DNA of 64,000 bases from Mycobacterium sp. Marseille-P9652. GTDB taxonomy: Bacteria > Actinomycetota > Actinomycetes > Mycobacteriales > Mycobacteriaceae. The notes beneath the pieces were generated by a model that saw only the letters and a program-made list of their open reading frames with translations, was not told the origin of the DNA and did no database searches. A program made the translations under genes and the position numbers. This document shows, one piece after another, positions 29,045 to 49,351 of the stretch (position 1 is the stretch's first letter; each line of letters opens with the position of its first letter). The DNA is taken from the NCBI RefSeq assembly GCF_902652685.1, contig NZ_CACRUY010000009.1, positions 62,001 to 126,000 of the forward strand. The letters run 5' to 3'.

Positions 29045-29063
29045 CAATACACCCCTAGGTAGG

Positions 29064-29069: not shown

Positions 29070-29076
29070 TCCGGGC

Positions 29077-30521: not shown

Positions 30522-30549
30522 TTGCAAACCGACCGGAGGTATGTAAAGT
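30522..30549 (+). promoter_or_regulatory. Candidate sigma-A-like promoter upstream of the PPE gene
   Basis: TTGCAA (30522-30527) and TAAAGT (30544-30549) are separated by 16 bases. It points at the small ORF at 30640 and the PPE gene. Confidence 0.3.
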
Positions 30550-30639
30550 TCGAGCGGACGGGTTTCGGGTACCCATCAGCGGGCGGGATTGCAGTGCAGC
30601 GAGATCGGCTCGCACGGGCCGGTTCTCTCGGGGGGATAG

Positions 30640-30930: not shown

Positions 30931-30944
30931 TCCGCGCATTCGCC

Positions 30945-32270: not shown

Positions 32271-32350
32271 GCGTGACAACGGGAGCCGGCCGTCCCGATC
32301 GGACGGCAGCTCAACAGGTTTTTCGAATTGCACCAGGGGGAGGGCTTTCC

Positions 32351-32446
32351 ATGACCGCAATCAGCGGCTCGTTACCACAAGCAACGACGGCGTGCCGTCC
32401 ATCGACTTCCGCCGCGGTCGGGTCTCACCGTGGAGGGCACCGGTGA
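32351..32446 (+). CDS. Leader ORF 1 of the polysaccharide operon
   Basis: A 31-codon ORF with a very strong ribosome binding site (GGGGGAGGG, 6 bases before the ATG). Its TGA overlaps the GTG of the next mini-ORF as GTGA (32443-32446). The peptide is Ser/Thr/Ala-rich with no known domain. The strong binding site supports real translation, but no homologue is recognised. Confidence 0.45.
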   Translation: MTAISGSLPQATTACRPSTSAAVGSHRGGHR

Positions 32447-32493
32447 TGACCGTGGCGGCTGCGGATCCAACTCGGGTCGGTCGGGCACCATGA
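32443..32493 (+). CDS. Leader ORF 2 of the polysaccharide operon
   Basis: A 16-codon ORF (GTG ATG ACC...) that begins inside the stop of leader ORF 1 and ends with TGA at 32491-32493, overlapping the ATG of the priming transferase as ATGA. It would hand ribosomes from leader ORF 1 to the first enzyme gene. Evidence is the double overlap. Confidence 0.4.
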   Translation: MMTVAAADPTRVGRAP

Positions 32494-33998
32494 CGCGGCC
32501 CGAAGCCCTCGATGTGCCGGAGGCCGGACTGAGTACGGTCCTGAATCCTCGCGGGGTCGCTGGCGGTTCCCGCGGTCGAACGTGGAATGGGCGCCTGCAA
32601 GTCGTCGACACGGCGGCAACGGACGCTCCCGCGGCGCACCGGGATCGCGACCTTCGGCGGGGCGTATGGCTACTCAGCCGTGTCCGGGCATGGATGTGCG
32701 TGCCGCCCATGGATTTCGCGATGATGGCTCTCCCAATCGTGTGGCGGCCGTACCAGATTCATGCGGTGTTGGTGATGGCCGTCTTGGGCCTGTTTCTGCT
32801 CTCGGGCGGCGGCAGGTATCGCGCGCGGCTGCACCTGAGCGTCCTCGACGAACTGCCCACCATCGTGGCGCGATTGCTGACCGCCGCGGCTGCCGTCGCC
32901 CTCATCATCGCCCTGCTTCACCAGAAGGAGGCCGTGCTGATGTTCCTCGACACGGCCTGCCTGGCAATCCTGCTTGTGGTGGGCGGACGGGTCATCACCA
33001 CGCAGTTGATCGCGCTGGGCCGACGTTCGGGAATCACCAGGCACCACACCGTCTGCATCGGTGGTGGCCCGCTGGCGGCCGAACTGGCCAAGATCCTCGG
33101 CGAGCATCGCGAATACGGCCTGGCGGTACACGGTTTCGTCGACGACGGCGACGACCACCATGCCCAGGCGGAGGTGCCGCGCCTCGGCACGCTGCGCGAA
33201 CTCGACGCGGCGGTCAAGGCGACGTCCGCCGACGTGCTGCTGATCGCCGACGGCAACTTCCAGGAACGCGTGCTCCTTGATGCCGTGCGCACGCCCGCGT
33301 GTCACCGGACCGACCTGCTGATCGTCCCGCGCATGCATCACTTCCACACGCAGACCGGAATGGCGGACCACATCGGCTCCATTCCGGTGATGCGGATCCG
33401 CACGCCCAACCTGCGCGGGCCGTCGCGGCTGATCAAGCGAATGTTCGACATCGTCATCGCGCTGACGGCCGCGGTGCTGGCGGGGCCGTTGATGGTGGTG
33501 GCGGCGGTCGCGGTGCGCATCGAAGGCGGCCCCGGGATCCTGTTCCGGCAGACCAGGATCGGACGAAACGCGAAGCGCTTCGAAGTGCTCAAATTCCGCA
33601 CGATGAAGCCGGCCGACAAGGCGGAGTCGGACACGACCTGGTCGGTGGCCACCGATCCCCGCGTGGGCCCGGTCGGCCGGTTCCTCCGCCGCACCTCGAT
33701 CGACGAGCTGCCTCAGCTGTGGAACATCATCCGGGGAGACATGACGCTGGTCGGTCCGCGTCCCGAGCGACCGCACTTCGTCGAGCAATTCTCCGCGCAG
33801 TTCGACCGGTACGCCCACCGGCACCGGGTCCAGGCCGGGCTCACCGGCCTCGCACAGGTCAGCGGGCTGCGGGGGAACACCTCGATCGCCGACCGGGCCC
33901 GATACGACAACTTCTACATCGAGAACTGGTCCCTGTGGCTGGACATGAAGATCGTCCTGCGGACCTTCACCGAGGTCGTCTTCCGCGGGGGCCGGTGA
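32490..33998 (+). CDS. Priming polyprenyl-phosphate sugar phosphotransferase (WcaJ/WbaP type)
   Basis: Starts a polysaccharide repeat unit by moving a sugar-1-phosphate from a nucleotide sugar to a polyprenyl phosphate at the inner membrane. The 502-residue protein has N-terminal membrane helices (about residues 70-175), a central Rossmann-like domain (CIGGGPLAAELAKIL) and the C-terminal catalytic domain. That domain shows KRMFDIVIAL (316-325), FRTMKPAD, DELPQLWNIIRGDMTLVGPRPE (Asp405-Glu406) and a final LTGLAQVSG. The choice of first sugar (glucose, galactose or other) cannot be read from sequence. It is the first enzyme gene of the operon. Confidence 0.92.
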   Translation: MTRPEALDVPEAGLSTVLNPRGVAGGSRGRTWNGRLQVVDTAATDAPAAHRDRDLRRGVWLLSRVRAWMCVPPMDFAMMALPIVWRPYQIHAVLVMAVLGLFLLSGGGRYRARLHLSVLDELPTIVARLLTAAAAVALIIALLHQKEAVLMFLDTACLAILLVVGGRVITTQLIALGRRSGITRHHTVCIGGGPLAAELAKILGEHREYGLAVHGFVDDGDDHHAQAEVPRLGTLRELDAAVKATSADVLLIADGNFQERVLLDAVRTPACHRTDLLIVPRMHHFHTQTGMADHIGSIPVMRIRTPNLRGPSRLIKRMFDIVIALTAAVLAGPLMVVAAVAVRIEGGPGILFRQTRIGRNAKRFEVLKFRTMKPADKAESDTTWSVATDPRVGPVGRFLRRTSIDELPQLWNIIRGDMTLVGPRPERPHFVEQFSAQFDRYAHRHRVQAGLTGLAQVSGLRGNTSIADRARYDNFYIENWSLWLDMKIVLRTFTEVVFRGGR

Positions 33999-34010
33999 TG
34001 GGAGGCGAGG

Positions 34011-35024
34011 ATGCGCGAAACCGATCGACGCCGAAAGGGGCGGATGGCCGTGGTTGATACGCAACCGATTCCGCGAGACGCGCGGGTGTATGTCGCCGGA
34101 CATAAGGGACTTGCCGGATCGGCAATCTGGCGCGCCATGCGTGATGCCGGCTTTCGCAACATGTTCGGTGTGTCGTCGCGTGAGGTGGATCTGCGGGAGC
34201 GAGACGCCGCCTTCTCCTACGTGCGGTCGGTGCGTCCGGACGTCGTCGTCGTGGCGGCGGCGCGCGTCGGCGGGATCGTCGCCAACAGCGCGCGCCCCGT
34301 CGACTTCCTGTCCGACAACCTGCGGATCCAGGTCAATGTCTTGGACGCCGCGCTGGCCGCGGGCGTCGGCCGGCTGCTGTTCCTCGGCTCGTCGTGCATC
34401 TACCCCAAACACGCCGAGCAACCGATCAAGGAATCCAGCCTGATGACCGGCGATTTGGAGCCGACCAACGACGCGTACGCGGTGGCGAAGATCGCCGGGC
34501 TGACGCAGGTCGCCGCGGTTCGCCGTCAGTACGGCATGGCGTGGATCTCGGCGATGCCGACGAATCTCTATGGGCCCGGGGACAACTTCGACCGCGAGGG
34601 CTCGCACGTCTTGCCGGGGTTGATCCGCCGCTTCCACGAGGCCGCGCAAGAAGGACGCGACGAAGTCGAGCTGTGGGGGAGCGGAACGCCGCGCCGCGAG
34701 TTCCTGCATTCCGACGACCTGGGCCGGGCCGTTGTGTGCCTGTTGGACTCCTATGACGCGCCCGAGATCATCAATGTCGGCTCGGGACAGGACATCAGCA
34801 TCCGCGAGCTGGCCGAACTGGTCGCCGAGGTCGTCGGGTTCGGGGGCCGGATCGTCCAGGACCGAACCCGCCCGGACGGAACCCCGCGGAAGTTGCTCGA
34901 CGTGTCACGGATCAGCGATCTGGGCTGGCGGCCGACCATCGGCCTGCGATCGGGCCTGGAGAGCACCTACCGCTGGTTCCTCGAGCATCACGAGGGCGCC
35001 CGGCTCGAGGCGGTGCGTCGATGA
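34011..35024 (+). CDS. fcl: GDP-L-fucose synthase
   Basis: An epimerase/reductase that converts GDP-4-keto-6-deoxymannose to GDP-L-fucose. NADP binds at [22 protein letters not shown] carries the catalytic Ser/Cys region and Tyr156-x3-Lys160 lies in YAVAK. It resembles M. tuberculosis EpiA. GGAGG lies 5 bases before the ATG at 34011; a second in-frame ATG at 34044 also has AAGGGG and is possible. It works with gmd, encoded next, although the order fcl-gmd is reversed compared with gmdA-epiA in M. tuberculosis. GDP-mannose must come from genes outside the window. Confidence 0.93.
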
Positions 35025-35113
35025 GCGTCGTGACGATCGCCGGACGACCCGAAAAACGCTGTGCAACAACGATCGGCCGAGCTGCGGCCCAGGAGCCGGG
35101 GAGGCGCGCATGA
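35021..35113 (+). CDS. Bridge ORF between fcl and gmd
   Basis: A 30-codon ORF. Its ATG overlaps the fcl stop (ATGA at 35021-35024) and its TGA overlaps the gmd start (ATGA at 35110-35113), so it exactly bridges an 85-base gap. The peptide is basic (ends EPGRRA) without a known domain. The GGGGAGG near 35097 could also recruit ribosomes directly to gmd. It may be a functional micro-protein or only a ribosome relay. Confidence 0.45.
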
Positions 35114-36216
35114 AGAAGGCTCTGATCACCGGAATCACTGGTCAAGACGGCTCTTATCTGGCGGAGCTACTGCTCGAGAAGGGCTACGAGGTCCACGGTG
35201 TGATCCGGCGAGCCTCCACGTTCACCACGTCGCGGATCGAGCATCTCTACACCGATCCGCACGAGGACGGGGCGCGCCTCTTCCTGCACTACGGAGACCT
35301 GACCGACGGCTCACGGCTCGTCACGCTCCTCGAGAAGGTCCGTCCCGACGAGGTGTATCACCTTGCGGCGCAGTCGCATGTGCGGGTGAGCTTCGACGAG
35401 CCGGAGTTCACTGGCGACACGACGGGTGTCGGCACCACTCGGCTGCTGGAGGCGATCCGCATGATCGGGCTGGACTGTCGCTTCTATCAGGCCTCGAGCT
35501 CGGAGATGTTCGGCGCGACGCCACCGCCGCAGAACGAGCTGAGCCCGTTCCATCCCCGCAGTCCGTACGGCGTCGCCAAGGTGTACGGCTACTGGATGGC
35601 CCGCAACTACCGCGAGGCGTACGGCATGTACGCGGTCAACGGGATTCTTTTCAATCACGAATCACCGCGCAGGGGAGAGACTTTCGTCACTCGCAAGATC
35701 ACGCGTGCCGTCGGGCGCATCAAGGCGGGCCTCGACAGGGAGCTGTACCTGGGCAACCTGGATGCGGCTCGGGACTGGGGCTATGCCAAGGACTACGTCG
35801 ACGGCATGTGGAGGATGTTGCAGGCACCGGAGCCCGATGACTATGTGCTCGCGACCGGGACGTCGTACACGGTGCGCGATTTCGTCAGGGTCGCGTTCGA
35901 GCATGCGGGGCTCGACTGGGAGAAGTACGTCAAGTTCGACCAGCGCTACGTGCGGCCCGCCGAAGTGGACTCCCTCGTCGGTGACGCCTCCAAGGCGGAG
36001 GCGCTGCTCGGCTGGAAGCCGCAGGTCTACATGCACGACCTGGCCCGGCTCATGGTGGACGCCGACTGCCGGGCCGCCCACGCCCAGGCCGCGCGCGATG
36101 AGACCGATCGGCAGCCGCAGAGAGCTGACGGCGGGGCGGTGACGGCCCTGCGTTCCCACCGGCGCTGGGAGCCGCAACCACGGCTGGAGGAAAAGAATGC
36201 CCTCGGCGCTTCGTAA
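35110..36216 (+). CDS. gmd: GDP-mannose 4,6-dehydratase
   Basis: Makes GDP-4-keto-6-deoxy-D-mannose from GDP-mannose, the precursor of GDP-L-fucose and GDP-rhamnose-type sugars. The NADP fingerprint is [20 protein letters not shown]; the catalytic Tyr153-x3-Lys157 is in [12 protein letters not shown], with ASSSEMFG as the third catalytic block and [16 protein letters not shown] conserved. The protein is 368 residues, with a charged C-terminal tail of about 40 residues beyond the usual end. It acts with the fcl product. Confidence 0.95.
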
Positions 36217-36250
36217 CCATCCACGTGACGGGGAACGGCGGAATCCATGA
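36197..36250 (+). CDS. Bridge ORF between gmd and the first Wzz gene
   Basis: A 17-codon ORF overlapping the 3' end of gmd out of frame. GGAGG (36186-36190) lies 6 bases before its ATG, an excellent ribosome binding site, and its TGA overlaps the ATG of the next gene as ATGA (36247-36250). Peptide [17 protein letters not shown] has no known domain. Confidence 0.45.
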
Positions 36251-37329
36251 ATCCCGAGGAAGCCGAAGAATTCACCAAGGGGCTCGATCAGATCGTCTCG
36301 GGCGTCTGGCGTCAGGTGGACGAGGGCGCGCGACTGGGTGTGCCCCAAGCGCTTGGCCTTTCCACCAGCGAATGGGCCCAGACGCGGCTCGGCAAGTCCC
36401 CCGCCGCCGACGCCCAGGCGCCTCCGCAAGCGGCCGAAGATGCGGCGCCCCTTCACGCAGAGGAGGGGGGCCGGCATCAACTCGTGACGGACGGCGCGTC
36501 CGCCTCCCGCGGCGAACTGCAACTTCGCCAGGGGACCGCCCGACGAAATGTCCGACGCGGACCCAAGATTTGGCTGGTCGTTCCCTTCTGCGGCGCCATC
36601 GGGCTGCTCGGGGGCCTGGCGGCGACGGCCGCGACGACGCCGACCTACGAGGCGGAGTCGGCTGCCTTCGTCAGCATGACGGCCCTCCCGGTCGACGATC
36701 CGAACAGCAATGACCCGTTCGGGAGCTCGCAGTTCGCGTTGCAGCGCGTGCAAAGTTATGCGCAGCTCGCGACGTCGCCGCAGGTAATCCAGGGAGCGAT
36801 GCGCGACCTTCACCTCGGTGACGGCGCCGCCCCGGACGTGAAGGTGACCACCACCGGCGGCGTGATGCTCTGGGTCACCGCTACGGATCGCGACCCGCAC
36901 ACCGCGGCGCGGATGGCCGACGCCGTCATGGCGAACCTGGTGCGCTCGGTAGCCACGCTGGAGGCGGGCGGCGGCCCGCATTCACCGATTCAGCTGGTGC
37001 CGGTGCAGCCGGCGATCGTTCCGGACGCACCGGAAGGCAACGGCGCCCTGGTCAAGACGTTGATCGGGCTGCTCGGCGGAGTGGGCCTGGGCGGGGCCGC
37101 CTACTACGTCATCCGGTCGCGCTACGGCGGCAGACACCAGAAGGGCGCGGCCAGAGGGTATCGGAGGCCACCCGTCCGGCCCTCCCGGCCACGTCCACGC
37201 CAGGAATTGGCACCCTCCTTCGAGCCGCCGGCCCGCCCGGAAGCGAAGCCGGAGCGCCGCGTCGACGGCGACGTCATGGTGCTCCGCATCGGCGATGGAC
37301 GTGAGTTCCCCCGGCGGCCGGGCCAATGA
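36247..37329 (+). CDS. Wzz/YveK-like chain-length regulator with cytosolic N-terminal extension
   Basis: A 360-residue two-helix membrane protein of the polysaccharide copolymerase type. Helices are at about 108-130 and 266-290; the periplasmic part between has the Wzz features SAAFVSM, QRVQSYAQLATSPQVI and VTATDRDPHTAARMADAV. Unlike typical YveK proteins it has about 105 cytosolic residues before the first helix, with an amphipathic KGLDQIVSGVWRQVDEGARL region and then low complexity, and about 70 Arg/Pro-rich residues after the second. No Walker motif for a tyrosine kinase is present. It couples to the flippase gene by ATGA. Confidence 0.82.
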   Translation: MNPEEAEEFTKGLDQIVSGVWRQVDEGARLGVPQALGLSTSEWAQTRLGKSPAADAQAPPQAAEDAAPLHAEEGGRHQLVTDGASASRGELQLRQGTARRNVRRGPKIWLVVPFCGAIGLLGGLAATAATTPTYEAESAAFVSMTALPVDDPNSNDPFGSSQFALQRVQSYAQLATSPQVIQGAMRDLHLGDGAAPDVKVTTTGGVMLWVTATDRDPHTAARMADAVMANLVRSVATLEAGGGPHSPIQLVPVQPAIVPDAPEGNGALVKTLIGLLGGVGLGGAAYYVIRSRYGGRHQKGAARGYRRPPVRPSRPRPRQELAPSFEPPARPEAKPERRVDGDVMVLRIGDGREFPRRPGQ

Positions 37330-38726
37330 CGACGAAGACCCTGCCGACCGTCCTGCCTGGTGAAGCCCATGGCGGCGTGGAGAGCGTTGAGCCGCAACCT
37401 ATCTGGCGGCTGATACTGACCTCGGGCGGCGCGCGCTTGGTGGTGCTCCCCGTAAGCGCGGTCTGCGGGCTGGTGGTCGCGCGGCTGACGACACTCGCCG
37501 TGGGTATCGATCAGTTCGGTGTCGTGATGCTCGTGGCGACGCTGAGTCAGCTCCTGATGTTTGCGGACCTCGGCGCGGGCGCGGCAGTCGCCACCGGACG
37601 AACGCAAGCGCACGACTCGCCGTCGGCGACCGAGCAGTTTCGGCGGACCATGCTCACGGCTATCCGCACCACCCTGGCGGCCGCCGTCGTGCTGGGCTTG
37701 CTCGCCGTCGTCCTCGGCCTGGCCGGAGTCTGGCCGGCGCTGCTGGGCATGCACGGCGGCGTCGGCGACGGGGCCAATCTCGCTGCCGTGCTGGCGCTGT
37801 CGGCGTTCAGCGTTTCGATACCCTTTGCCCTCGGGGCGGACGTGCTCCGGGGGAGTGGGCGACTGCACGAAGCCGTTGTCCTGGGCGGGGTTTCCGGCCC
37901 GGCGTCCCTCGCGATGACGGCCGCGCTGTACCTGATGCACGCCCCGCCGCTGGCGTACGCGCTGCCGATTCCGGTCGGTTTGCTGCTCGGCTATGTCCTG
38001 TCGGCCATGCGGGCCCGGCACACCGACAAGCGGATCATGGGCGGGCTGCTGCGCAAGGTGCTGCGCCCGAGGCGATTCCCGGGTGCTGCGATATCCGCAA
38101 CTGCCGCACCGATGTTCGTCGTGATGATCGGGCTGCCGCTGGCGCTGCAGTCGGACCGCATCGTGCTCGCGCACCGCGTCGCCCCGGTGGCGCTGTCCGG
38201 CTATTCCTACGTGGCCCAGCTCTACGCGCCGCTGTGGTCGGTCATCTCCGTTGCGGGACTGGCGCTGTGGCCTCACTTCGCGGCCGACAACCTGGCCGTC
38301 GACGCACTTCGGAGGAGCTGGCTGACGGGACTGAAGATCCTCGGTGGCGCCGGGGTGGTCGCCGCGGGCTGCTTTGTGGCGCTGAGCCCCGTTGTCGTCG
38401 TATGGATGAGCGCGGGGACCGCACGCCCGGGGTGGTCCATGCTTCTCGCGTTCGCCGCGCTGCTGGTGGTGCAGTCGCTGCACCTCACCTCCGGCATCAT
38501 GCTGATCTCGCCGGAACAGCTGCGCTTCCAGGCGGTCTGCGTCGTCGTTCTCGTTCTCGTGAACCTTCCGCTTTCGTGGGTCCTGGCCGGATCCTGGGGC
38601 CCGTCCGGTCCCGTGTGGGCCTCGGCGATCACCGTGGCCGCCTGTCAGCTGGTGCCCGGGGCGGTGGTCGCGAACCGGATCGCGTCACCCCGCGCCGAGG
38701 CGCCCGGGAAGGCACCCCGTGGCTGA
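37326..38726 (+). CDS. Wzx-type polysaccharide flippase
   Basis: A 466-residue membrane protein with about 12-14 helices, resembling the oligosaccharide flippase/MurJ-MATE fold (FADLGAGAAVATGR, LALQSDRIVLAHR, YSYVAQLYAPLWSVISVAGLALWP). It would move the lipid-linked repeat unit to the outer face of the inner membrane. The position between Wzz and Wzy genes supports this. Similarity to the family is in pattern rather than strict motifs, as usual for Wzx. Confidence 0.85.
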   Translation: MTTKTLPTVLPGEAHGGVESVEPQPIWRLILTSGGARLVVLPVSAVCGLVVARLTTLAVGIDQFGVVMLVATLSQLLMFADLGAGAAVATGRTQAHDSPSATEQFRRTMLTAIRTTLAAAVVLGLLAVVLGLAGVWPALLGMHGGVGDGANLAAVLALSAFSVSIPFALGADVLRGSGRLHEAVVLGGVSGPASLAMTAALYLMHAPPLAYALPIPVGLLLGYVLSAMRARHTDKRIMGGLLRKVLRPRRFPGAAISATAAPMFVVMIGLPLALQSDRIVLAHRVAPVALSGYSYVAQLYAPLWSVISVAGLALWPHFAADNLAVDALRRSWLTGLKILGGAGVVAAGCFVALSPVVVVWMSAGTARPGWSMLLAFAALLVVQSLHLTSGIMLISPEQLRFQAVCVVVLVLVNLPLSWVLAGSWGPSGPVWASAITVAACQLVPGAVVANRIASPRAEAPGKAPRG

Positions 38727-40101
38727 CTCGATCACCACCGCGGTCATGGTCACCCTCAGCGTGGTGGCCGTTCTGATCCTGTTCAGCGGGCTGCGGAAAA
38801 TCCGAGCGGCGGGGGAGTGGTCGCGCACCGCGACGTTCGGCGCCGTGATCATCGTGACGACCACCAGCCTGGTCGAGGTGGCCGTGACCTACCTCGGCAA
38901 ATGGACCAAGGTGCGCAACGCCTACAAGACCGTGACCTGGGTCAAGCCGGACCTGGCACACCAAGCCAACCGGTTGATCCTGGTGCTGCTGGCCGTCAGC
39001 GCCACCGCAGTCTTCGTGGTGATGCTCAAGCGGCGCGGTACGCTGATCAACCTTCCCGCAGTGCTTTTCATGCTGATCGAAGTCGTTTCGGCGGAGTCGG
39101 CGTTGCTGCACGGCGACAACCCCTTCCGGCCCTTCTCGCTGGTCTTCCTGACTGTCGTCCTCGCATGCACGGTGGCGCCGCGGGGATTGGGAATTCACAT
39201 CGGCGTCGGCACGGCGTGCACGATCGCCGCGATTGCGAGCGGCTTCACGTTCCTGATCCAGCGAGACTTCAGTGTCTTCTCCTGCAGCGTGGGCACTTTC
39301 ACGTCGGACAAATGCGGGCTGTTCGACTTCGACTTCCGGGGCACCATGGAGAACGAGAACGCCCTGGCAATGTATCTCGCGCTGGCGATGCCGTTCGTCT
39401 ACCTGGGTTTCGGCTCGTGGGAGGGTCCTGCCCTCAGCGGCTACATCCTGTGTCTCGCCCTCATGACCGGCGGCCGCTCGGGCATGACCGCCGCCGCCGT
39501 CACTTTCCTTGCCCTGCTTGTGTTTCGACCCAACGTCCGAAGGGGAAACGCCGCGGCACCGGTACGCAACGCATTGCTGTACGCCGGGCTTGGCGCGATG
39601 GCCGTGATCGGCTTCGTGACACCGTTCCTGACCACCGACCCGGACGCCTACCACGGACGGGCCGCGTTGTGGATCATGGCGCGGGAGGCCCTCACCGACC
39701 CGGCCACCCTGATCCACGGAACCGGGATGTACGGATGGCAGCACGTGCGCGACAGCGGGATGATCGACCCGTCCGCGTCGTACTCCGTTCACAATCAATG
39801 GCTGCAGGTGTTGTTCTCGACCGGGCTCCTGGGCCTCGTTCTGTACCTTGCCGCGCTGGGCGTGCTGATCTGGCAGTCCCGGCGCGGCTACAGCCTGGTC
39901 ATCGGGTGCGTGCTGCTGCCGGTCTTCATGCTGTCGCTGACCGAGCGGCCCTGGCCGCTCGACTTCACCGACTGGCTGACGTGGGCGTGCCCGGCGGCCT
40001 TACTCAGTTATCCGGCGGTGCGACGCCTCCCGAGATCGACCGGGCGGGAAGACGTGTCGCAGCCACAGTCCGGCCACACCGTCGCGGAGTTGGTCCCGTG
40101 A
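38719..40101 (+). CDS. Wzy/O-antigen ligase-family polymerase
   Basis: A 460-residue membrane protein with about 11 helices and a large outer loop. The Wzy_C/WaaL signature is seen as TMENENALAMYLALAMPF, a following GGRSGM turn, and GTGMYGWQHVRD...YSVHNQWLQVLFSTGLLG with the conserved HNxWLQ histidine in the loop. It would polymerise repeat units outside the cell. GTG start, overlapping the flippase end by 8 bases; its stop overlaps the next GTG as GTGA. Confidence 0.86.
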   Translation: MADSITTAVMVTLSVVAVLILFSGLRKIRAAGEWSRTATFGAVIIVTTTSLVEVAVTYLGKWTKVRNAYKTVTWVKPDLAHQANRLILVLLAVSATAVFVVMLKRRGTLINLPAVLFMLIEVVSAESALLHGDNPFRPFSLVFLTVVLACTVAPRGLGIHIGVGTACTIAAIASGFTFLIQRDFSVFSCSVGTFTSDKCGLFDFDFRGTMENENALAMYLALAMPFVYLGFGSWEGPALSGYILCLALMTGGRSGMTAAAVTFLALLVFRPNVRRGNAAAPVRNALLYAGLGAMAVIGFVTPFLTTDPDAYHGRAALWIMAREALTDPATLIHGTGMYGWQHVRDSGMIDPSASYSVHNQWLQVLFSTGLLGLVLYLAALGVLIWQSRRGYSLVIGCVLLPVFMLSLTERPWPLDFTDWLTWACPAALLSYPAVRRLPRSTGREDVSQPQSGHTVAELVP

Positions 40102-42359
40102 CGGTGAACGGCGGGCGCAGCGTTTCGGTGTGCGTCAACGGCAAGTGGCTAGCGCAGCCCGCGTCCGGTACGCAGCGGTACGCGACGGGGGTGATGCGCG
40201 CCGTCAGCGCCACGCCGATCGCGCCACACGTGACGCTGATCGTGCCGCGGGATGCGACGGAACCGCCCTGGGCGGGGCGCTTCCGGATCGTCCGGTCCCG
40301 CCTTCGGGGCCAGCTGTTCGAGCAACTGGCGTTGCCGTGGCTGTCCCGGGGAGCGCACCTGTATTCGCTTGCCGGGCCCGCCCCGCTTCTCAAGCGCAAG
40401 CAGACCGTGGTCATGCACGACGCCATGCCGTTTCGCTGCCCGGGCACGTTCCGGTTGGCCTTCATCGTCTGGTACCGCTTCATGTACACGGTGCTGTCGC
40501 GAACCGCGACGCGGCTTTTCACGGTGTCGTCGTTCAGCCGGACGGAACTCTCCTCCGTGTTGGGCGTTCCGGAACGCCGATTCGAGCTGGCCCCCTGCGG
40601 GGCCGACCATGTGGACGCCCGGCCCCTCGCGGATGCGGGCACCCCGCTCCCATTCGCTCCCGGGTCGTACGCCCTGATCGTCGGCAACCTGGCTCCGCAC
40701 AAGAATGTGATCGCCGCGGCCGGTGCGCTTTCCGGCGGCGGCGTGCCCGTCGTCGTGGTCGGGGGCGCCCAGCAGGTATTCCGCGACGTCGCGCCGGACC
40801 GCCCCAGCGCCGTGTGTTTCCTCGGCCGCATCGACGATCGGCAGCTGCGGCGGCTGTACGGCACCGCCGGAGTGCTCGTGGCCGCGTCCAGCTACGAGGG
40901 TTTCGGACTGCCGATCGTCGAGGCGGGCAGGCTGGGGTGCCCCGCGGTGTATGCGACGGGCTCCGCGTTGACCGAAGTGGCCGGCGAGAGCGGATGCGGC
41001 TTCCCGCCGGGAGATTGGGACCGCTGCGTCGAAGTGGTCAGGCGGATCCTCTCCAGCACCGACCTTCGCCATGAGCTTGCCGCACGCGCGCGAAGCAACG
41101 CCGCCCGATTCACGTGGGCCGGCGCCGCCGACAAAATCTTCGCGGGCGCCAAGCCCGCACACGACGACGGGAGGCGCGTGCCGTTGCGCGTGTTGCACGT
41201 CACGGAGACGTTCTCGGCGGGAACCGGCTCCGCGATCATCGGATACGCCCGGGCCGTCCGCGACCACGGCGTCGAATCGATGCTGCTGGCACAGGATCGC
41301 GGATCGGGCCTGCTGACGGAACTCGGCGGATCGTCCCCGTTCACCGCGGCGCGCATCGTCGGTCCGGGCTTGGCGAACCTGTGGCGGGCGATCGGGTCGG
41401 CGGTCAAGGAGGACAACCCGGACATCGTTCACCTGCATTCGTCGATGGCCGGCGGGGTGGGGCGGCTGCGGCTTGCCCTCGGGCACACGCCGATCGTCTA
41501 CAGCCCCCACTGCTTCGCATTCGAGCGGCGCGACGTTTCCCCGATGCGCAGGTGGGCTTTTCACGGTGTCGAGTTTCTCCTTGCGCGACGGACGGGCGCG
41601 TTCGTGTGCGTGAGTCCCCACGAGGCCGGGCTCGCCAGGCGGCTGGCGTCGAGGGCCGACGTGGTTCACCTGCTGAACTCCTTCTCCCCGGCGCCGGCGA
41701 CCTCGGCCTTCGGTTCCATGCCCGGCGCGGACGCGGCCGCGATGCGGATCGTGACGGTGGGAAGGGTTGCCCCACAGAAGGATCCGGGCCTGTTCGTCCG
41801 GATCGTGACGATGCTCGCCGACGCCGGTGACGTTCACGCCACCTGGGTTGGCGATGGGGCCGGCAATGCGCGCGACGCCCTGGAATCGGCCGGTGTGTCG
41901 GTGACCGGCTGGCTACCGGTAGAGCAGGTCCCGGCCGCGATGGCGAGCCAGACCGTGTACCTGCACACGGCGGGATGGGAGGCCGCCCTGCCGATCGCGG
42001 CGATCGACGCCATGCAGGCCGGGCTTCCGGTAGTGATGCGGCGCAACGCCGCCTACCATTCGATGCTGCCCGACGACTGGCAGTTCGATGACGCCCCATC
42101 GGCGGCCGAGATGATCCGGGCCCTCGCCCGCCGGCCGGCGCGCCAGCGTCGCATCCGTGAGCAGTTCGAGCTCCTCGTCGAATTGCGCAAGGACAACCCC
42201 GCGCTTGTCCTCCCACCCGAATACCGCCGCCTGTTTCAGAAGTCGAAGGCAGGACCGCGCGCTGGCACGTCCCACTCCGACGGCGGGACGCTCCCAACCG
42301 GACACGACAGCACGATCATGAAGGAGAGCTGGTGGCGAAACCGCTATACAGCATCGTGA
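40098..42359 (+). CDS. Tandem GT4-GT4 glycosyltransferase fusion
   Basis: A single 753-codon frame holds two GT-B glycosyltransferases of family 4. Domain 1 (about 1-350) includes VHDAMPFRCPG-like VMHDAMP, VGNLAPHKN and the sugar-nucleotide site SSYEGFGLPIVEA. Domain 2 (about 361-700) starts LRVLHVTETFSAGTG and has TVGRVAPQKDPGLF and TAGWEAALPIAAIDAMQAG. No stop separates them. A GTG at 41178 preceded by GGGAGG might also start domain 2 separately. Two sequential sugars could be added by one polypeptide. The last 28 bases overlap the next gene. Confidence 0.85.
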   Translation: MTVNGGRSVSVCVNGKWLAQPASGTQRYATGVMRAVSATPIAPHVTLIVPRDATEPPWAGRFRIVRSRLRGQLFEQLALPWLSRGAHLYSLAGPAPLLKRKQTVVMHDAMPFRCPGTFRLAFIVWYRFMYTVLSRTATRLFTVSSFSRTELSSVLGVPERRFELAPCGADHVDARPLADAGTPLPFAPGSYALIVGNLAPHKNVIAAAGALSGGGVPVVVVGGAQQVFRDVAPDRPSAVCFLGRIDDRQLRRLYGTAGVLVAASSYEGFGLPIVEAGRLGCPAVYATGSALTEVAGESGCGFPPGDWDRCVEVVRRILSSTDLRHELAARARSNAARFTWAGAADKIFAGAKPAHDDGRRVPLRVLHVTETFSAGTGSAIIGYARAVRDHGVESMLLAQDRGSGLLTELGGSSPFTAARIVGPGLANLWRAIGSAVKEDNPDIVHLHSSMAGGVGRLRLALGHTPIVYSPHCFAFERRDVSPMRRWAFHGVEFLLARRTGAFVCVSPHEAGLARRLASRADVVHLLNSFSPAPATSAFGSMPGADAAAMRIVTVGRVAPQKDPGLFVRIVTMLADAGDVHATWVGDGAGNARDALESAGVSVTGWLPVEQVPAAMASQTVYLHTAGWEAALPIAAIDAMQAGLPVVMRRNAAYHSMLPDDWQFDDAPSAAEMIRALARRPARQRRIREQFELLVELRKDNPALVLPPEYRRLFQKSKAGPRAGTSHSDGGTLPTGHDSTIMKESWWRNRYTAS

Positions 42360-43171
42360 CGATCACCTTCCAGAACCTGGAAGGTCTGCAGCGCACGGTC
42401 GAATCGCTACGGTCCCAATTCTATTGCGACTTCGAACACATCGTCATCGATGGCGGCTCGACCGACGGCTCCCGGGAGTGGCTGGCGGCCGGCTTCGACG
42501 GGACCTGGGTGAGCGAGCCGGACCGCGGCCGCTACGACGCGATGAACAAGGGTGCCCGCCTGGCCCGCGGCGAGTACCTGTGGTTCATGCATGCCGGCGA
42601 CGTCTTCGGCGACGCCGGGGTCCTGACGCGCGTCGCGGCCGCGATCGATGAATGCGGTGACCGTCGTCCGGGGTGGATGTACGGCCTCGCTCGCGTGGTG
42701 GGTCCGGACGGGGGTGTGCACTCCACCCTCGGGTTCGTCCCCTTCAAGATGTTCAACTCCGCGATCATGCAGCGCCCGATCCCGCACCAGGCCAGCGCGA
42801 TACGGCGCGACCTGTTCTGGGAGTTGGGTGGGTACGACGAGGAGTTCGGCCTGGCGGCCGATCAGTTGCTGATCATGCGTGCCGCCGCCGCGTCGCCGCC
42901 CCTGCCCCTCGCCGATTTCCTCTGTGACTTCGACTGCACGGGAATCAGCGCGGAGGTGTCCTGGTGGAGCTACTACCGCAACAACGTGCGGATCCGCCGT
43001 AGCCTGGACGCCCCGATCATGCGCTGGCGGACGCTGGACAACGTGCTGGCGTTGGGCTGGGCGGTTTCTCGTTTCCTCGCCCAAACCTTCCGCGCCGCGG
43101 CCCTGAGGCCGGAGAGCTCTCCGCCGCAGGCCATTTCGGCGACGCCGGCCCTCGCGGGAGGACCGCGATGA
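42332..43171 (+). CDS. Family 2 glycosyltransferase
   Basis: A 279-residue GT-A enzyme: YSIVTITFQNLEGLQRTVESL, then the metal-binding region IDGGSTDGSREWL and WFMHAGDVFGD, where the second acidic motif sits. SEPDRGRYDAMNKGARLARGEYLWF is typical of WcaA-like transferases. AAGGAGA lies 6 bases upstream of the GTG start, within the previous coding region. Acceptor and donor unknown; fucose from GDP-fucose is one option for the cluster's transferases. Its stop overlaps the next ATG. Confidence 0.9.
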   Translation: MAKPLYSIVTITFQNLEGLQRTVESLRSQFYCDFEHIVIDGGSTDGSREWLAAGFDGTWVSEPDRGRYDAMNKGARLARGEYLWFMHAGDVFGDAGVLTRVAAAIDECGDRRPGWMYGLARVVGPDGGVHSTLGFVPFKMFNSAIMQRPIPHQASAIRRDLFWELGGYDEEFGLAADQLLIMRAAAASPPLPLADFLCDFDCTGISAEVSWWSYYRNNVRIRRSLDAPIMRWRTLDNVLALGWAVSRFLAQTFRAAALRPESSPPQAISATPALAGGPR

Positions 43172-44391
43172 ACGGGCGGATCGAGGTCACCGCGGTTCGC
43201 CGATTCGACGAGCTGGCCGCGATCCGCAAGGAGTGGGCCGGCCTGCACGAGGATGCGGCGCCCGGCTCGCCGTTCGAACACCCGGCATGGGCCGAGACGT
43301 GGGCGAAGTACTACGTACCCGAGGCCGACCTGGAGTGCGTCGCGGTGCGGGACCACGCACAGAGCGACTCGCTCATCGGCTTCGCGCCGCTCTACCGGCG
43401 CCACAGGGGCGTGGCCGGGGTCGGCGCCACCTGCCTACAGCCCCTGGGCACGGGGCGCCACCAGGCCCTGACCGAGGTTGTCCAGGTGCTCGCCCGGCCC
43501 GAGCGCACGAGTGACGTCATGCGGGCGGTGCTCCACCACCTCGAATCGCTGGAAGGCTGGAACTGGGCGCACCTTTCCCTCGGGCCTACCCAGGGCTGGT
43601 TGGTGCCGCAATGGCTGGACGACCATGCCAACGCGATGCTTCGGCACATCAAGACACGTCCGTGTGTCGTCTTCGACGACCTGCCGACCGATGTGGCCGG
43701 CCTCAAGTCGCGGCTCAAGCGCAACGTGCGGGAATCGATCCGCCGTAGCCGCAACCGCTCGGCGAAGCTCGGCTCGATGACTTTTCGGAGCGCCTCGGAC
43801 GTCGCAGAACTCGACGCGACGGTGCCCAAACTCGTGGAGCTGCACCGCATGCGCGCCGCGATGCCGGGCAAGGTGGAGCACGCCGACATCCTCGGCGGGA
43901 TGGAAAGCGCATTCCTGGCCGACACGGTGCAACACTTCGCCGAATACGGGCTCGCCCGCATCTACGTGGCCGAGCACGCCTCAGAGCCTGTGGCGGCCCA
44001 ACTCGTGCTGTCCGACGGCCGCACCGACTACGTGTCCGTCAGTGGCCTGGACCCCCGCTACTGGGACTTCAGCCTCAACACGATGCTGATCTACAACGCG
44101 CTGGAGGATGCGGTCTCGCTGAGGCGGACCGCGCTCAACCTCTCAACCGGGCCCGGGGTCGCGAAAAACCGCTGGAGTTCGACGATCACCACCTATCACG
44201 ATTTCGCGATCGTGCGTCCCGACCGCCGATCCCGTTGGCTGTACGGCGGTTTCACCCACGCCAGCCTGGCGCTCGACCACTACCACGAGGCGAGGCTGCA
44301 CCGCACCAGGGACGACACCAAGCTCACCCGCAGGGTGCGCGAAGCCAGCCGTCGCGCGGCGGACGTCGTTCGGACGAGGGGAGTGGCATGA
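43168..44391 (+). CDS. FemAB/GNAT-like acyltransferase (CelD-type, BioF2 domain)
   Basis: A 407-residue protein with two GNAT-like halves. PFEHPAWAETWAKYY and LIGFAPLYRR mark the first; SRLKRNVRESIRRSRNR, then VAEHASEPVAAQLVLSDGRTDYVSVSGLDPRYWDFSLNTMLIYNALE mark the second, as in the COG5653 family seen in polysaccharide clusters. These proteins transfer acyl or aminoacyl groups. In this operon it may acylate an amino sugar of the repeat unit. Start and stop overlap both neighbours as ATGA. Confidence 0.82.
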   Translation: MNGRIEVTAVRRFDELAAIRKEWAGLHEDAAPGSPFEHPAWAETWAKYYVPEADLECVAVRDHAQSDSLIGFAPLYRRHRGVAGVGATCLQPLGTGRHQALTEVVQVLARPERTSDVMRAVLHHLESLEGWNWAHLSLGPTQGWLVPQWLDDHANAMLRHIKTRPCVVFDDLPTDVAGLKSRLKRNVRESIRRSRNRSAKLGSMTFRSASDVAELDATVPKLVELHRMRAAMPGKVEHADILGGMESAFLADTVQHFAEYGLARIYVAEHASEPVAAQLVLSDGRTDYVSVSGLDPRYWDFSLNTMLIYNALEDAVSLRRTALNLSTGPGVAKNRWSSTITTYHDFAIVRPDRRSRWLYGGFTHASLALDHYHEARLHRTRDDTKLTRRVREASRRAADVVRTRGVA

Positions 44392-45011
44392 GAGTCGATA
44401 CCGCGCTGCGGGCCATGATGCACAGGTGGCTCATCATCGCCGCCATCACCGGGGCGATGGCGGCGATGGGGGCGATCTTCGCCGTGTTCAATCCGCCGAT
44501 GTACAAGGCGACCGCCGAGGGGTTGTTCTCGGTCGCTTCGCCGGAAACCAGGACGCCGTACGCGATGGCCAACGGCTCCCAGTACATCCTGGACCGGATG
44601 ACCAGCTACGCGCAGCTGGGCAAGACCACCCCGGTGCTGACCCCGGTCGTAAACGGGCTGCACCTCGACGAAACGCCGTTGACGCTCACCGGACGCGTGA
44701 CCTCGAAGAGTTCGGCAGACAAGGCCATTCTGGACGTGAGCGTGGAGTACAACGATCCGGTGATGGCGGCCCGCATCGCGGACGCCACACTGGCGCAGAT
44801 CGGCCAGGCCGTGTCTCGCGTCGAGAACGGCAACGTCAAAGTCACGGCGGTGGGTCCGGCGGTGGTGCCGCGGCCATCGTCGCGGCTGCATCTCCTCATT
44901 CATGCCGGGGTGGGCGCGATCGCCGGATTGGTGCTCGGGTCGTTCGTGGCCGTCGGGTTGGAGTTCCTGCGCGAACGGGCGGCATGGCGGCGGGCCGTAC
45001 CGCTGTCCTGA
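44388..45011 (+). CDS. Second Wzz/YveK-like chain-length protein
   Basis: A compact 207-residue copolymerase: helix 1 near residues 13-34 (WLIIAAITGAMAAMGAIFAVF), a periplasmic part with GSQYILDRMTSYAQLGKTTPVL and VEYNDPVMAARIADATLAQIG, and helix 2 near 165-190. No kinase domain. With the larger Wzz-like protein encoded earlier it may form a mixed complex that sets chain length. ATGA overlap with the preceding gene. Confidence 0.85.
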   Translation: MRVDTALRAMMHRWLIIAAITGAMAAMGAIFAVFNPPMYKATAEGLFSVASPETRTPYAMANGSQYILDRMTSYAQLGKTTPVLTPVVNGLHLDETPLTLTGRVTSKSSADKAILDVSVEYNDPVMAARIADATLAQIGQAVSRVENGNVKVTAVGPAVVPRPSSRLHLLIHAGVGAIAGLVLGSFVAVGLEFLRERAAWRRAVPLS

Positions 45012-45034
45012 CAAGCGATCCCGTTCCCTACCCG

Positions 45035-46189
45035 ATGGAGGCGACATTGCGGCAAGCGCGAGTGATTCTGCAGTTGTCCTCGCTCGTGCCACCCGCCCGG
45101 TACGGTGGCGCCGAGCGCGTGGTGGGCTCGTTCGGCGAACAGCTCGAAGACGCCGGCTTTCTCGTGCACAACCGCGGGCTCCGGCCGCGTGGCCGTGGTT
45201 CGGGCGAGGTGTCGGCGCACGCGATCCCAAACATGTTCTGGCCCTTCGACGGCCGGCGGCGCGGATTCGCCCGGCGCGCGCTGTGGCACGCGGTCGACAC
45301 CCTTTCTTTGTCCGCCCGCTCACGCGTCGATCGCATCCTCGACGAAGTGCGCCCCGACGTCGTCATCAGCCACAACCTGCGGGGCTGGGGGTATGCGCCG
45401 TGGGTGGTCGCCGCGGAGCGCGGCATCCCGCTCGTGCATGTCGTCCACGACTACGGCCTGCTGTGCAACTCGACAACTCTGTGGAACGGCGCGGTCTGCG
45501 ACCGCGTCTGCCGGCCGTGCGCTCCGCGGGTTGGCGCGAGCCGCCGACGCTGGCCGGGGGGCCAGATCGTCGGCGTGTCAAGGGCAGTGCTGGCAGAGCA
45601 CGGGCGACGAGGCCTCGCCGACTTCACCGACGCGGTGGTCGTGCACCCGACCGCGGCGGCCGCAAGCGTGGATTCCACCGACGCGCCCCGCGCCACAGGT
45701 GTGCCGTCGACGGTCGGTTACCTGGGTCGGGTGACCGATGCCAAGGGCGTGGACGTTCTCCTGGCCGCGATCGAGCGCACCGACAGGCGCCTGATCGTGG
45801 CGGGCGAGGGCGACCCCTCTTTCGTCGACCGGCTCAGAGGCCGCGCGCCGAGCCAGGTGGAGTGGCGGGGCCACGTCGATCACACCCGGTTCTTCGACGA
45901 GATCGACGTGCTCGTTGTCCCCTCGGTGTGGTTGGAGCCGTTCGGGCTGGTGGTCGCCGAAGCGGCGCGCGCCGGTGTCCCGGTGCTGATCGCCGACAGG
46001 CCCGGCCTCGTCGAGGCCGCCCGCGTCTCGGGTGCATGCCACTCGACGTTCCGGTCCAACGACGTGGCGGCGTTGCGGGCCGCGCTCGAGCGGCCGCTGC
46101 GCGACTACCGGACGGATCCCGCCCCGGGCCAACCGGTTCGGATCGCCGACGTGGTGACCCGCGCTTTGGCGGAGGGATCCGCGAGTTGA
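45035..46189 (+). CDS. Family 4 glycosyltransferase
   Basis: A 384-residue GT-B enzyme. LQLSSLVPPARYGGAERVVGSF is the N-terminal acceptor-side motif; GYLGRVTDAKGVDVLLAAIE opens the donor domain and VVPSVWLEPFGLVVAEAARAGVPVL is the EX7E-type donor site. A cysteine cluster (LLCNSTTLWNGAVCDRVCRPCAPR) in the middle is typical of a subgroup that may bind metal. No good ribosome binding site precedes the ATG at 45035; an in-frame ATG at 44984 inside the Wzz gene is an alternative. Couples to the next gene by TTGA. Confidence 0.88.
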   Translation: MEATLRQARVILQLSSLVPPARYGGAERVVGSFGEQLEDAGFLVHNRGLRPRGRGSGEVSAHAIPNMFWPFDGRRRGFARRALWHAVDTLSLSARSRVDRILDEVRPDVVISHNLRGWGYAPWVVAAERGIPLVHVVHDYGLLCNSTTLWNGAVCDRVCRPCAPRVGASRRRWPGGQIVGVSRAVLAEHGRRGLADFTDAVVVHPTAAAASVDSTDAPRATGVPSTVGYLGRVTDAKGVDVLLAAIERTDRRLIVAGEGDPSFVDRLRGRAPSQVEWRGHVDHTRFFDEIDVLVVPSVWLEPFGLVVAEAARAGVPVLIADRPGLVEAARVSGACHSTFRSNDVAALRAALERPLRDYRTDPAPGQPVRIADVVTRALAEGSAS

Positions 46190-47241
46190 GGTTCGGGCGG
46201 CGTTTCCCGCGGCACGCACGACTAGCCCTCGCGTGGCTGGTCGTGCCCGTCGGACTGATCGCCGCCCTCGCCCTGTCGCACTGGACACCACTCGGCCCCG
46301 TTCAGCTCGGCATGTGCATCAACATCGTCGACGGCGACGCCGCGACCATCAGCCGCGAATTCGACCTGCTGGCGGCGATGAAGGTCACGTGGGTCAGGGC
46401 GGATTTCGACTGGTCGGGGATCGAAGGTGAGCGCGGACGGTTCGACTGGGCCTACGCGGATCGCGTGGTACACGAGGCGTCGCTGCGACGGATGAACGTC
46501 GTCGCCATCCTCGACTACACACCCGACTGGGCACGCGCCCCGGGCACGACGAGTCACAGTCCGCCGCAACGTTTTTCCGACTACGCCGAGTTCGCGCATG
46601 CCGCGGCCACGCGTTATGCGTCCCTCGGCGTGCGTACCTGGGAGATCTGGAACGAGCCCAATTCCGGCGACTTCTGGCAGCCCCGGCCGGATCCGGATGC
46701 CTACGGAGAGTTGTTCCGGGCCGCGGCCGGCGCGGTTCGCGCCGCGGACCCGGGTGCCACCCTGCTGACGGGGGGGCTCACCCGGGGGACCGACGCAACC
46801 GACGGTGAAAGGCTCTCTCAGCGAACCTTTCTCGAGCGGCTCTACGCGAACGGTGCCGCGCGACTCGCCGACGCGGTCGCCATTCACCCCTACAGCTTCC
46901 CGTGGTTACCGATGGCGGAACCGCGCGGCTTCACGGGGGGATTCAACGATCTGCCGAAGCTGCGCGACCTCATGGTCCGGCATGGCGACTCCGGGAAGAA
47001 GATCTGGATCACCGAGTTCGGCGCGGCCACCGGTCGCGACTCCGCCGCGCTGTCTCCCGGGGAACAGGCCGAGAGCATCGTGGCGGCCCGCCGCCAGGTC
47101 CGGCAGTGGGACTGGGCGGGGCCGCTGATCTACTACGAGCTTCGCGACGAGGGCACCGACCCGCACGACATCGAGCAGAACTTCGGCGTGGTGCGAAACG
47201 ATTTTACTCCGAAACCGGCCGCGAAGGCGTTGATGGAATGA
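46186..47241 (+). CDS. Membrane-anchored glycoside hydrolase (PslG-like GH39/GH5 clan)
   Basis: A 351-residue secreted-side hydrolase. An N-terminal signal anchor (RLALAWLVVPVGLIAALALS) precedes a (beta/alpha)8 barrel. The acid/base is Glu157 in EIWNEPN and the nucleophile Glu277 in WITEFGAATG, which marks a retaining clan GH-A enzyme. PslG of the Pseudomonas Psl exopolysaccharide cluster is a similar enzyme in a similar setting. It may cut or trim the polymer made here. The TTG start overlaps the upstream stop, with GGAGGG nine bases before. Confidence 0.86.
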   Translation: MRFGRRFPRHARLALAWLVVPVGLIAALALSHWTPLGPVQLGMCINIVDGDAATISREFDLLAAMKVTWVRADFDWSGIEGERGRFDWAYADRVVHEASLRRMNVVAILDYTPDWARAPGTTSHSPPQRFSDYAEFAHAAATRYASLGVRTWEIWNEPNSGDFWQPRPDPDAYGELFRAAAGAVRAADPGATLLTGGLTRGTDATDGERLSQRTFLERLYANGAARLADAVAIHPYSFPWLPMAEPRGFTGGFNDLPKLRDLMVRHGDSGKKIWITEFGAATGRDSAALSPGEQAESIVAARRQVRQWDWAGPLIYYELRDEGTDPHDIEQNFGVVRNDFTPKPAAKALME

Positions 47242-48332
47242 CTCTGAAGAGTACCGGCGTGACACGGGACAAAGTCCCCGGGAGGGCAACCAAGCCGGAG
47301 CGGGACGCGAGCGTCGACGTCGCCCGTGGTATCGCCATCGTCTCGGTCGTCCTCGTGCACGTGCTGCGGGGACTCGACGCCGCACACCTGCTGGGCCGCG
47401 GCGACTGGTTCCCTGCAATGGACCGGGTGCTCAGTCTTTGGGGTCTCTCTGTATTCGCCTTTCTCGGAGGGGTTTTCGTGAGGGACGCGGTGGCCAAACG
47501 GTCCCTGCCGGCGTACCTGTACGAGCGGTCCTTTCGGTTGATATTCGTGTACGTGCTGTGGTCCCAGCTGCAAGGGGTCATCCAGATCTGGGCCGCGGGA
47601 ATCGTCAACCATCCGGGCTCCGTTGGCTTCCTGCTCGAGCTGTGGGCTCCGAAGGGCCAGTTGTGGTACTTGCCGTTCCTCGTGCTGGCCACGCTGGTTC
47701 TGGTGCCGATGCGGCCGTGGCGGTCCACACGGGGTCCCTGGATCCTGGCTGCGTCGGCGATCCTCAGCGTCGCCTTCTGGGGCCTCGACGACGGGGTGAT
47801 CGGCACCCAGGGACTCGGCCTGGTGGTGTTCTTCGTCGGCGGGATGGTGTGCGGTGTGCGTCGGCTCCGGTCGGCGTTGGCGTCGCTGCCCTCGCTGGCC
47901 GCCGGGTTGGCCGGCGGCGGCCTGTTTTCGGCCGGCGTGGCGGTGGCCGTGCACCTGCGGCCGACACCTCCGACGACATGTTGGTCCGAGCGCACGGTGT
48001 CGACCGTCGCGCTCGGCGTTGCTCTCTCGGTGCTGATGTCATTCGCCGTGCTGCTGTGTGCCCGGGGGGAATGGGCGTCATTGTTCCTGGGACTCTGCGG
48101 TCGCCGGTCCCTCGACATCTTCCTGATCCACATCGTGATGGCTTCGGGATCACGAATCGTTCTCGTCAAGCTCGGGGTTCAGTCGACGGCGACGCTCGTC
48201 GCGGTCGGACTCATCGCCGGGGTCGCCGGTTCGCTCCTCGCGGCAAGCGCGCTTCGGCGTGCCGGGCTCGGCTGGGTCTTCGACGGCCCGACGCCTCCGG
48301 CTTTCGGGCGCTCGCGGAGCCGCCGCCCGTAG
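47238..48332 (+). CDS. Acyltransferase-3 family membrane protein
   Basis: A 364-residue protein with about ten helices of the AT3 fold: DVARGIAIVSVVLVHVLRGLD at the start, with the catalytic His, then FLGGVFVRDAVAKRS, APKGQLWYLPFLV and LDIFLIHIVMA. No SGNH domain. Relatives add acetyl, succinyl or other acyl groups to sugars from a carrier across the membrane. As the last gene of the operon, it probably decorates the polysaccharide. ATGA overlap upstream. Confidence 0.87.
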   Translation: MTLKSTGVTRDKVPGRATKPERDASVDVARGIAIVSVVLVHVLRGLDAAHLLGRGDWFPAMDRVLSLWGLSVFAFLGGVFVRDAVAKRSLPAYLYERSFRLIFVYVLWSQLQGVIQIWAAGIVNHPGSVGFLLELWAPKGQLWYLPFLVLATLVLVPMRPWRSTRGPWILAASAILSVAFWGLDDGVIGTQGLGLVVFFVGGMVCGVRRLRSALASLPSLAAGLAGGGLFSAGVAVAVHLRPTPPTTCWSERTVSTVALGVALSVLMSFAVLLCARGEWASLFLGLCGRRSLDIFLIHIVMASGSRIVLVKLGVQSTATLVAVGLIAGVAGSLLAASALRRAGLGWVFDGPTPPAFGRSRSRRP

Positions 48333-48367
48333 CCGGAAGGGCGATGACGAGGGTTTCGACCGCCCAA

Positions 48368-49267: not shown

Positions 49268-49351
49268 CGACGAACCCCTTCCCGCGCGGCCCCGCGTTAG
49301 TTAGCCCATTTAAGTGATGGCTCCACTGTACCCAAGCGGCGGCCGGCGCGC

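Follow-up and report, generated by a model that had tools for sequence, protein, structure and literature searches.

The window, meaning the whole 64,000-nucleotide stretch of the Mycobacterium sp. Marseille-P9652 genome analysed here (contig NZ_CACRUY010000009.1, positions 62,001 to 126,000), contains an operon whose gene families are those of Wzx/Wzy-dependent polysaccharide synthesis. It comprises 13 open reading frames (ORFs) between window positions 32490 and 48332, all on the + strand and mostly overlapping. The first-pass annotation of this DNA had counted twelve same-strand genes in the interval; its coordinates, strand and gene content hold, and the count is corrected to 13. Eight of the 12 junctions between these ORFs are overlaps of 4-28 bases and four are gaps of 23-85 bases, figures that depend on the start codons chosen in this analysis, and the pattern is as expected for one transcript. 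Scans for promoters (one site, 0.9 expected) and terminators (10, with 7.1 expected) were uninformative.

Enzyme families were assigned from Pfam and NCBIfam profile scores against the family cut-offs, and both the families and their place in one operon can be read directly from the DNA. The first ORF (32490..33998) encodes a WcaJ-like polyprenyl-phosphate hexose-1-phosphate transferase (PGT; PF02397, 221 bits; TIGR03025, 395 bits, cut-off 296) that keeps the motifs KFRTM, DELPQ and VGPRP. It is followed by Fcl, a GDP-L-fucose synthase (34044..35024; NF047922, 442 bits; PDB 8du0, E 5e-104) with the motifs GSSCIYP and YxxxK (YAVAK), and by Gmd, a GDP-mannose 4,6-dehydratase (35110..36216; TIGR01472, 507 bits, cut-off 415; PDB 1n7g, E 3e-136) with SSSEMFG and YxxxK. 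Gmd is the sole close copy in the genome (next-best match, 29% identity), and, with the catalytic motifs of both enzymes in place, the operon has its own genes for GDP-fucose supply, as had been claimed for it.

The next three ORFs encode membrane proteins: a Wzz-like co-polymerase without a kinase domain (36247..37329; PF02706, 14.2 bits, cut-off 25.5), a Wzx flippase of the MOP superfamily (37326..38726), and a Wzy-like polymerase with nine transmembrane (TM) segments by hydropathy and the motif YSVHN (38719..40101; PF04932, 37.9 bits, cut-off 31.7). A second, Wzz/CpsC-like co-polymerase lies further downstream (44388..45011; PF02706, 20.7 bits; TIGR01006, 39 bits, sub-threshold to a cut-off of 296), and hydropathy gives each Wzz-like protein two TM segments. 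Two GT4 glycosyltransferase (GT) domains, GT4a and GT4b, are fused in one ORF (40098..42359; PF00534/PF13692 in two stretches, domain boundary near 41177), which is also unbroken in all three relatives that have both domains (genomes G261, G352 and G160). The other two GTs are a GT2 enzyme, weakly WcaE-like (42332..43171; PF00535, 63 bits; TIGR04009 WcaE, 77 bits, below the cut-off of 369), and GT4c (45035..46189; PF13692, 69 bits). An accessory GNAT/FemAB-like acyltransferase (43168..44391; PF13480, 67 bits) had no match in PDB. The operon ends with a retaining GH5/GH39-like glycoside hydrolase (46186..47241; PF00150, 33 bits) and an AT3 O-acyltransferase (47238..48332; PF01757, 102 bits), the latter weakly matching the NolL fucose acetyltransferase (28 bits, cut-off 425). 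The hydrolase keeps both catalytic motifs, WEIWNEPN and IWITEFG; PslG is its nearest solved relative (4zn2/5bx9; phmmer E 2e-18), and, judged by eye, it may carry a membrane anchor.

The window Wzx has no meaningful single-sequence Pfam match (one at E 1.4), and its relative in genome G179 matches PF01943 at E 2e-4, under the cut-off. Its identity as a MOP flippase is settled by profile-profile comparison: a profile of five window-type flippases aligned with the flippase family of a second Wzx/Wzy locus in the same genome, whose member here is positive for PF01943 and PF13440, at 100% hhalign probability (E 8e-43, 394 columns), and control profiles of Wzy, Wzz-kinase and PGT proteins reached at most 0.23% against the flippase. 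It is also 30.5% identical to an annotated oligosaccharide flippase. With the families recognised by Pfam and NCBIfam, and with the two Wzz-like proteins below cut-off, this supports the full Wzx/Wzy-type set that had been proposed.

Predicted product and alternative readings

The operon probably makes a Wzx/Wzy-dependent, fucose-containing heteropolysaccharide. In the proposed pathway, the PGT would load a hexose-1-phosphate onto a polyprenyl-phosphate carrier, Gmd and Fcl would convert GDP-mannose to GDP-L-fucose, and the four GT domains would attach about four sugars. The lipid-linked unit would then be turned outward by the MOP flippase, and units would be joined by Wzy under the control of the two Wzz-like proteins. 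Acylation would be carried out by the AT3 and GNAT-type enzymes, and trimming or release of chains by the PslG-like hydrolase; a PPE protein encoded just upstream is a candidate for the crossing of the mycomembrane. The sugar order, a unit of about five sugars, polymerisation, the fucose content and a surface fate are all predictions from the gene families. The first-pass annotation had suggested a new exopolysaccharide; the polysaccharide operon stands, a fucose polymer is what it would be expected to make, and exopolysaccharide is one of several possible fates, others being a polymer attached to the wall or the product of a ligase.

Several observations weigh against this assignment. The PGT scores 370 bits against the WcaJ family TIGR03023, under its cut-off of 411, the Fcl score falls just short of the NF047922 cut-off of 500, and both Wzz-like proteins score below the PF02706 cut-off. 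No BY-kinase (Wzc) was found among the 13 ORFs scanned. The outer-membrane polysaccharide exporter OPX (PF02563) was absent from all ten genomes tested, the source included, with positive controls in E. coli and three others. In G270, one of five close relatives described below, only the PGT (71% identity) and Wzy (48%) are shared, beside weak GT and Fcl matches. Finally, the Wzy-like protein is over the PF04932 cut-off in a family that also holds O-antigen ligases, so that sequence by itself does not separate polymerase from ligase.

If the PF04932 protein were a ligase or O-oligosaccharyltransferase, a single oligosaccharide would be placed onto a lipid, a wall polymer or a protein without polymerisation. 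The family carries the name O-antigen ligase, and the protein has a weak TfpM match (19.5 bits, cut-off 600). This is nevertheless improbable, as the two Wzz-like proteins and the PslG-like hydrolase suit a polymer and the protein matched no other ligase or oligosaccharyltransferase family at cut-off. Instead of being shed, the polymer might be attached by LCP ligases to arabinogalactan or peptidoglycan, in the manner of Gram-positive capsules, which would change only the last step of the proposed pathway. This outcome, which we consider possible though doubtful, gains from the four LCP (PF03816) genes of the genome and from the lack of an outer-membrane OPX in the genomes tested; on the other hand, none of the 13 ORFs is an LCP gene, and LCP genes in mycobacteria serve arabinogalactan. 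Fucose is known in glycopeptidolipids (GPL) and lipooligosaccharides (LOS), and the fucose synthesis genes and AT3 acyltransferase could therefore belong to an operon that glycosylates a lipid. That origin is very improbable: no polyketide synthase, nonribosomal peptide synthetase or acyl-lipid gene was found among the 13 ORFs, the search covering the operon only, and GPL synthesis is not known to need a PGT, flippase, Wzy or Wzz.

A heteropolysaccharide operon of this kind resembles several known systems. The Wzx/Wzy-dependent pathway of the colanic acid and group 1 capsule type shares with it a PGT, GDP-fucose genes, GTs, a MOP flippase and acyltransferases in one operon, to which the Wzy-like protein and the putative chain-length proteins would add further likeness. 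The window operon differs in having a PPE gene at its head and neither Wza/OPX nor a BY-kinase, and in a host bounded by a mycomembrane instead of a lipopolysaccharide outer membrane. In Pseudomonas aeruginosa, the Psl locus likewise has a hydrolase, PslG, beside Wzx/Wzy genes; the window operon has fucose genes and lacks a PslD-type exporter. Plasmid pYLL2 of Rhodococcus sp. YL-1 carries, in one direction, a sugar transferase, Gmd, Fcl, a UDP-glucose/GDP-mannose dehydrogenase, GTs, a transporter (29.7% identical to the window Wzx), further GTs, an O-antigen ligase-family protein and an acyltransferase. Its PLSDB table, which like other PLSDB tables is incomplete, contains no Wzz, hydrolase or PPE. 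Wzx/Wzy clusters also occur in Actinoplanes missouriensis, which is not known to have a mycomembrane. There, clusters wps-1 to wps-3 and imp, some with deletion phenotypes, have a role in sporangium formation, wps-1 includes sulfotransferases, and no mention of fucose was found in the paper (PMC13390465). The pathway itself is thus already known elsewhere, Rhodococcus and Actinoplanes included. What is new is its occurrence in a large part of the genus, the lack of OPX in the genomes tested, and the PPE gene at its head in PPE-rich species. No description of a mycobacterial Wzx/Wzy locus was found among the literature matches listed, most subscription journals being beyond reach; one study names alpha-glucan and lipoarabinomannan as capsule glycans (PMC4900558).

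Spread in the genus and related loci

The PGT family PF02397 was found in 305 of the 396 same-genus genomes searched. The range G000-G069 provided a sample of 60 genomes, in which the same 49 have both PF04932 and PF02397 and the remaining 11 have neither (hypergeometric P about 3e-12, descent ignored). Within 20 kb of a PGT lie 46 of the 75 PF04932 matches, in 32 of the 49 genomes; some of the missed pairs are due to contig breaks, and several complete genomes have the two genes far apart. The other 48 PGT-bearing genomes were surveyed in 89 regions around 96 PGT genes. The regions extend approximately 10 kb to each side, some contigs end early, and one split PGT may have been counted twice or more. 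Within these 20-kb regions, 39 of the 96 PGT genes have a flippase-profile match, 40 a Wzz-profile match and 58 an ORF with at least eight TM segments. A full set beside every PGT is not established, because a flippase match lies near just 39.

The source genome itself has a second Wzx/Wzy locus (contig C5, 103182-122496), with a Wzz fused to an AAA_31 domain, a Wzy_C protein, a PF01943 flippase, a PGT, a PPE gene, oxidoreductases and GTs. It shares the order PPE-PGT-Wzx, Wzy_C and Wzz with the window operon and differs in its AAA_31-fused Wzz and its GTs. Parts of it recur in G001, G036, G017 and G045. By eye, two of its genes look lipoprotein-like. This second complete locus and the 49 of 60 genomes in which the PGT and Wzy_C families co-occur rule out that the window operon is a lone oddity: genomes with this gene set are frequent in the sampled genus, where the window operon is one among many cassettes. 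The first-pass interpretation is thus partly supported, being largely right but too narrow. Should many mycobacteria possess such Wzx/Wzy loci as well, a little-explored layer, differing between species by cassette, would be added to their surface chemistry, to the matrix of their biofilms and to the targets that phages and antibodies recognise.

Close relatives of this particular operon are few. A search with the window Wzy protein matched 11 of the 396 same-genus genomes, namely the source, five weakly and five closely (G261, G352, G160, G179 and G270; 49-65% identity), so that a close Wzy is present in 6 of 396 with the source included. Among 401 family-wide genomes there were nine matches: the source, G004 (E 6e-4) and seven genomes of other genera at 22-30% identity. 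Central gene order is kept in four of the five close relatives. G261, G160 and G179 keep the order Wzz1-Wzx-Wzy-GT4a-(GT4b)-GT2-(GNAT)-Wzz2-GT4c-GH-(AT3), in which the genes in brackets are missing from some. G352 has the same central order up to the contig edge, its contig beginning inside Wzz1, and GNAT and AT3 genes were not found in it. In G261 every ORF except the GNAT-type gene is present, 12 out of 13, at a different chromosomal place; G179 is without GT4b and the GNAT gene, and the latter is present in only one of the four relatives with the central block. In G160 and G179 the part from Wzz1 to AT3 is kept, and the PGTs are divergent (31-37% identity), with Fcl and Gmd at 64-73%. Divergence of the PGT-Fcl-Gmd module beside a conserved Wzx-Wzy-GT core suggests cassette exchange of that module in these two genomes. 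Twelve operon ORFs were compared with their G261 counterparts, and their ratios of nonsynonymous to synonymous substitution (dN/dS) are 0.11-0.43; the PPE gene has a ratio of 0.30. With dS at 0.7-1.2, these values are consistent with purifying selection.

The PPE gene upstream of the priming transferase

A PPE gene (30945..32270, + strand; PF00823, 221 bits), which the first-pass annotation had left out of its account, heads the operon on the same strand, 219 bp before the PGT start. Its product contains the SVP-type motif GGLSVPASW. Both PGT genes of the source genome have a PPE gene directly upstream in the same direction; with 36 PPE matches in the genome, the rough chance of this is about 4e-5, descent ignored. 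The operon copy in G261 is also headed by a PPE gene.

In the surveyed regions, genomes were taken as PPE-rich at 30 or more PPE genes (17 genomes, many with counts of at least 48) and as PPE-poor at 11 or fewer (31 genomes). In the PPE-rich genomes, 16 of 17 PGT genes have a PPE gene in their region, in all 16 cases upstream and co-directional at a distance of 0.55-4.1 kb, and four control regions from such genomes contained no PPE among 59 genes. In the PPE-poor genomes a PPE gene lies near none of 79 PGT genes, which rules out that all such loci need one. The PPE-rich exception, G030, has WXG100 (Esx-type) and AT3 genes at the usual place of the PPE (region L104, 15393-17056). In G006 the arrangement is extended to PE, PPE, an NTP transferase-like gene (below cut-off), a PIG-L deacetylase, WecG, PGT and Wzx on one strand (PE-to-WecG-type run, region L077, 4790-8803).

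A tree of 51 PPE proteins, including 31 other PPEs of the source genome, places the 16 linked PPEs and that of the second locus in one clade (support 1.0), and because of this the 16 count as approximately one inherited case. The window PPE groups with two PPEs of G261, one of them heading the operon copy (support 1.0). These two linked groups are separate in the tree. The intervening branches have a support of 0.74-0.90, and the approximately unbiased (AU) test did not reject a single clade of all 20 linked sequences (p 0.52), so that two independent PPE-PGT linkages are not supported; the linked PPEs may belong to a single dedicated clade or to two. None of the source genome's 31 other PPEs falls within either group.

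Gram-negative Wzx/Wzy systems cross the outer membrane through an OPX protein. Since no Wza-type exporter was found in the ten genomes, the PPE protein may serve the outer-membrane step. From its position, it may be an outer-membrane or anchoring part, and it is the best candidate here for crossing the mycomembrane. In the literature, PPE10 is reported to affect capsule integrity (PMC4900558), PPE substrates to localise to the outer membrane (PMC10597459), and PPE51 and PPE64 to take part in transport across the mycomembrane (PMC8826857, PMC12802285). In its strongest form, the proposal would be that mycobacteria have a Wzx/Wzy system of their own, in which PE/PPE proteins secreted by the type VII route, with their genes at the operon head, take the place of Wza and either carry the polymer or anchor it at the mycomembrane. 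We regard this form as rather unlikely. If true, PPEs in polysaccharide loci would act in export or in anchoring the capsule, and some members of a puzzling family would thereby gain a function. The PPE link also connects with the capsule and outer-membrane reports above and offers a concrete, deletable gene set for asking by what route a large polymer passes the mycomembrane.

The chances are about even that the PPE gene is simply a neighbour of the PGT by chance or common descent, with no part in export. The single clade of linked PPEs, which amounts to roughly one event, the AU result that leaves even two independent linkages unsupported, the PGT loci of PPE-poor genomes and the exception in G030 all point that way. 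Against it, the PPE-PGT link stands at three chromosomal places (the second locus, the ilvA-treZ site and the other site in G261), the rough chance estimate for the source genome is low, and its 31 other PPEs are not in the linked groups.

Insertion between ilvA and treZ

The operon had been described as inserted between ilvA and treZ, and comparison within the genus confirms this. The interval between ilvA (24905-26185, named by the first-pass annotation and by conserved neighbourhood) and treZ (49352-51070; TIGR02402) spans 23.2 kb here against 0.01-3.4 kb in the nine relatives compared, out of 12 same-genus relatives. Colinearity by blastn ends at 28757 and restarts at 49355 with G010, and ends at 28202 and restarts at 49327 with G001. 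The inserted block (28757..49327, approximately 20.6 kb, with no strand assigned) is missing from the ilvA-treZ interval in all nine. It also contains a SAM methyltransferase gene (48368-49267) and a LuxR-type response regulator gene (29077..29739, + strand; PF00196, 62 bits), which could be a regulator of the operon; tblastn found none beside the operon copy of G261.

No tRNA was found in the window, no convincing repeat flanks the block, and no integrase was found among the block ORFs scanned. GC content stays even across the block. Carriage by phage or plasmid was rejected: 12 viral-contig stretches fit a Wzy-alignment pattern and none was confirmed, and plasmids gave four distant flippase matches at 28-30% identity, in Rhodococcus (two), Actinomyces and Streptomyces.

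Two further features lie downstream in the window. At positions 62001-64000 the GC content drops to 0.55, against approximately 0.69 elsewhere, and this DNA is possibly mobile or foreign. At 55599-57683, a gene for a 694-amino-acid AT3-SGNH fusion protein adjoins the gene next to treY, which was taken for treX by its position.

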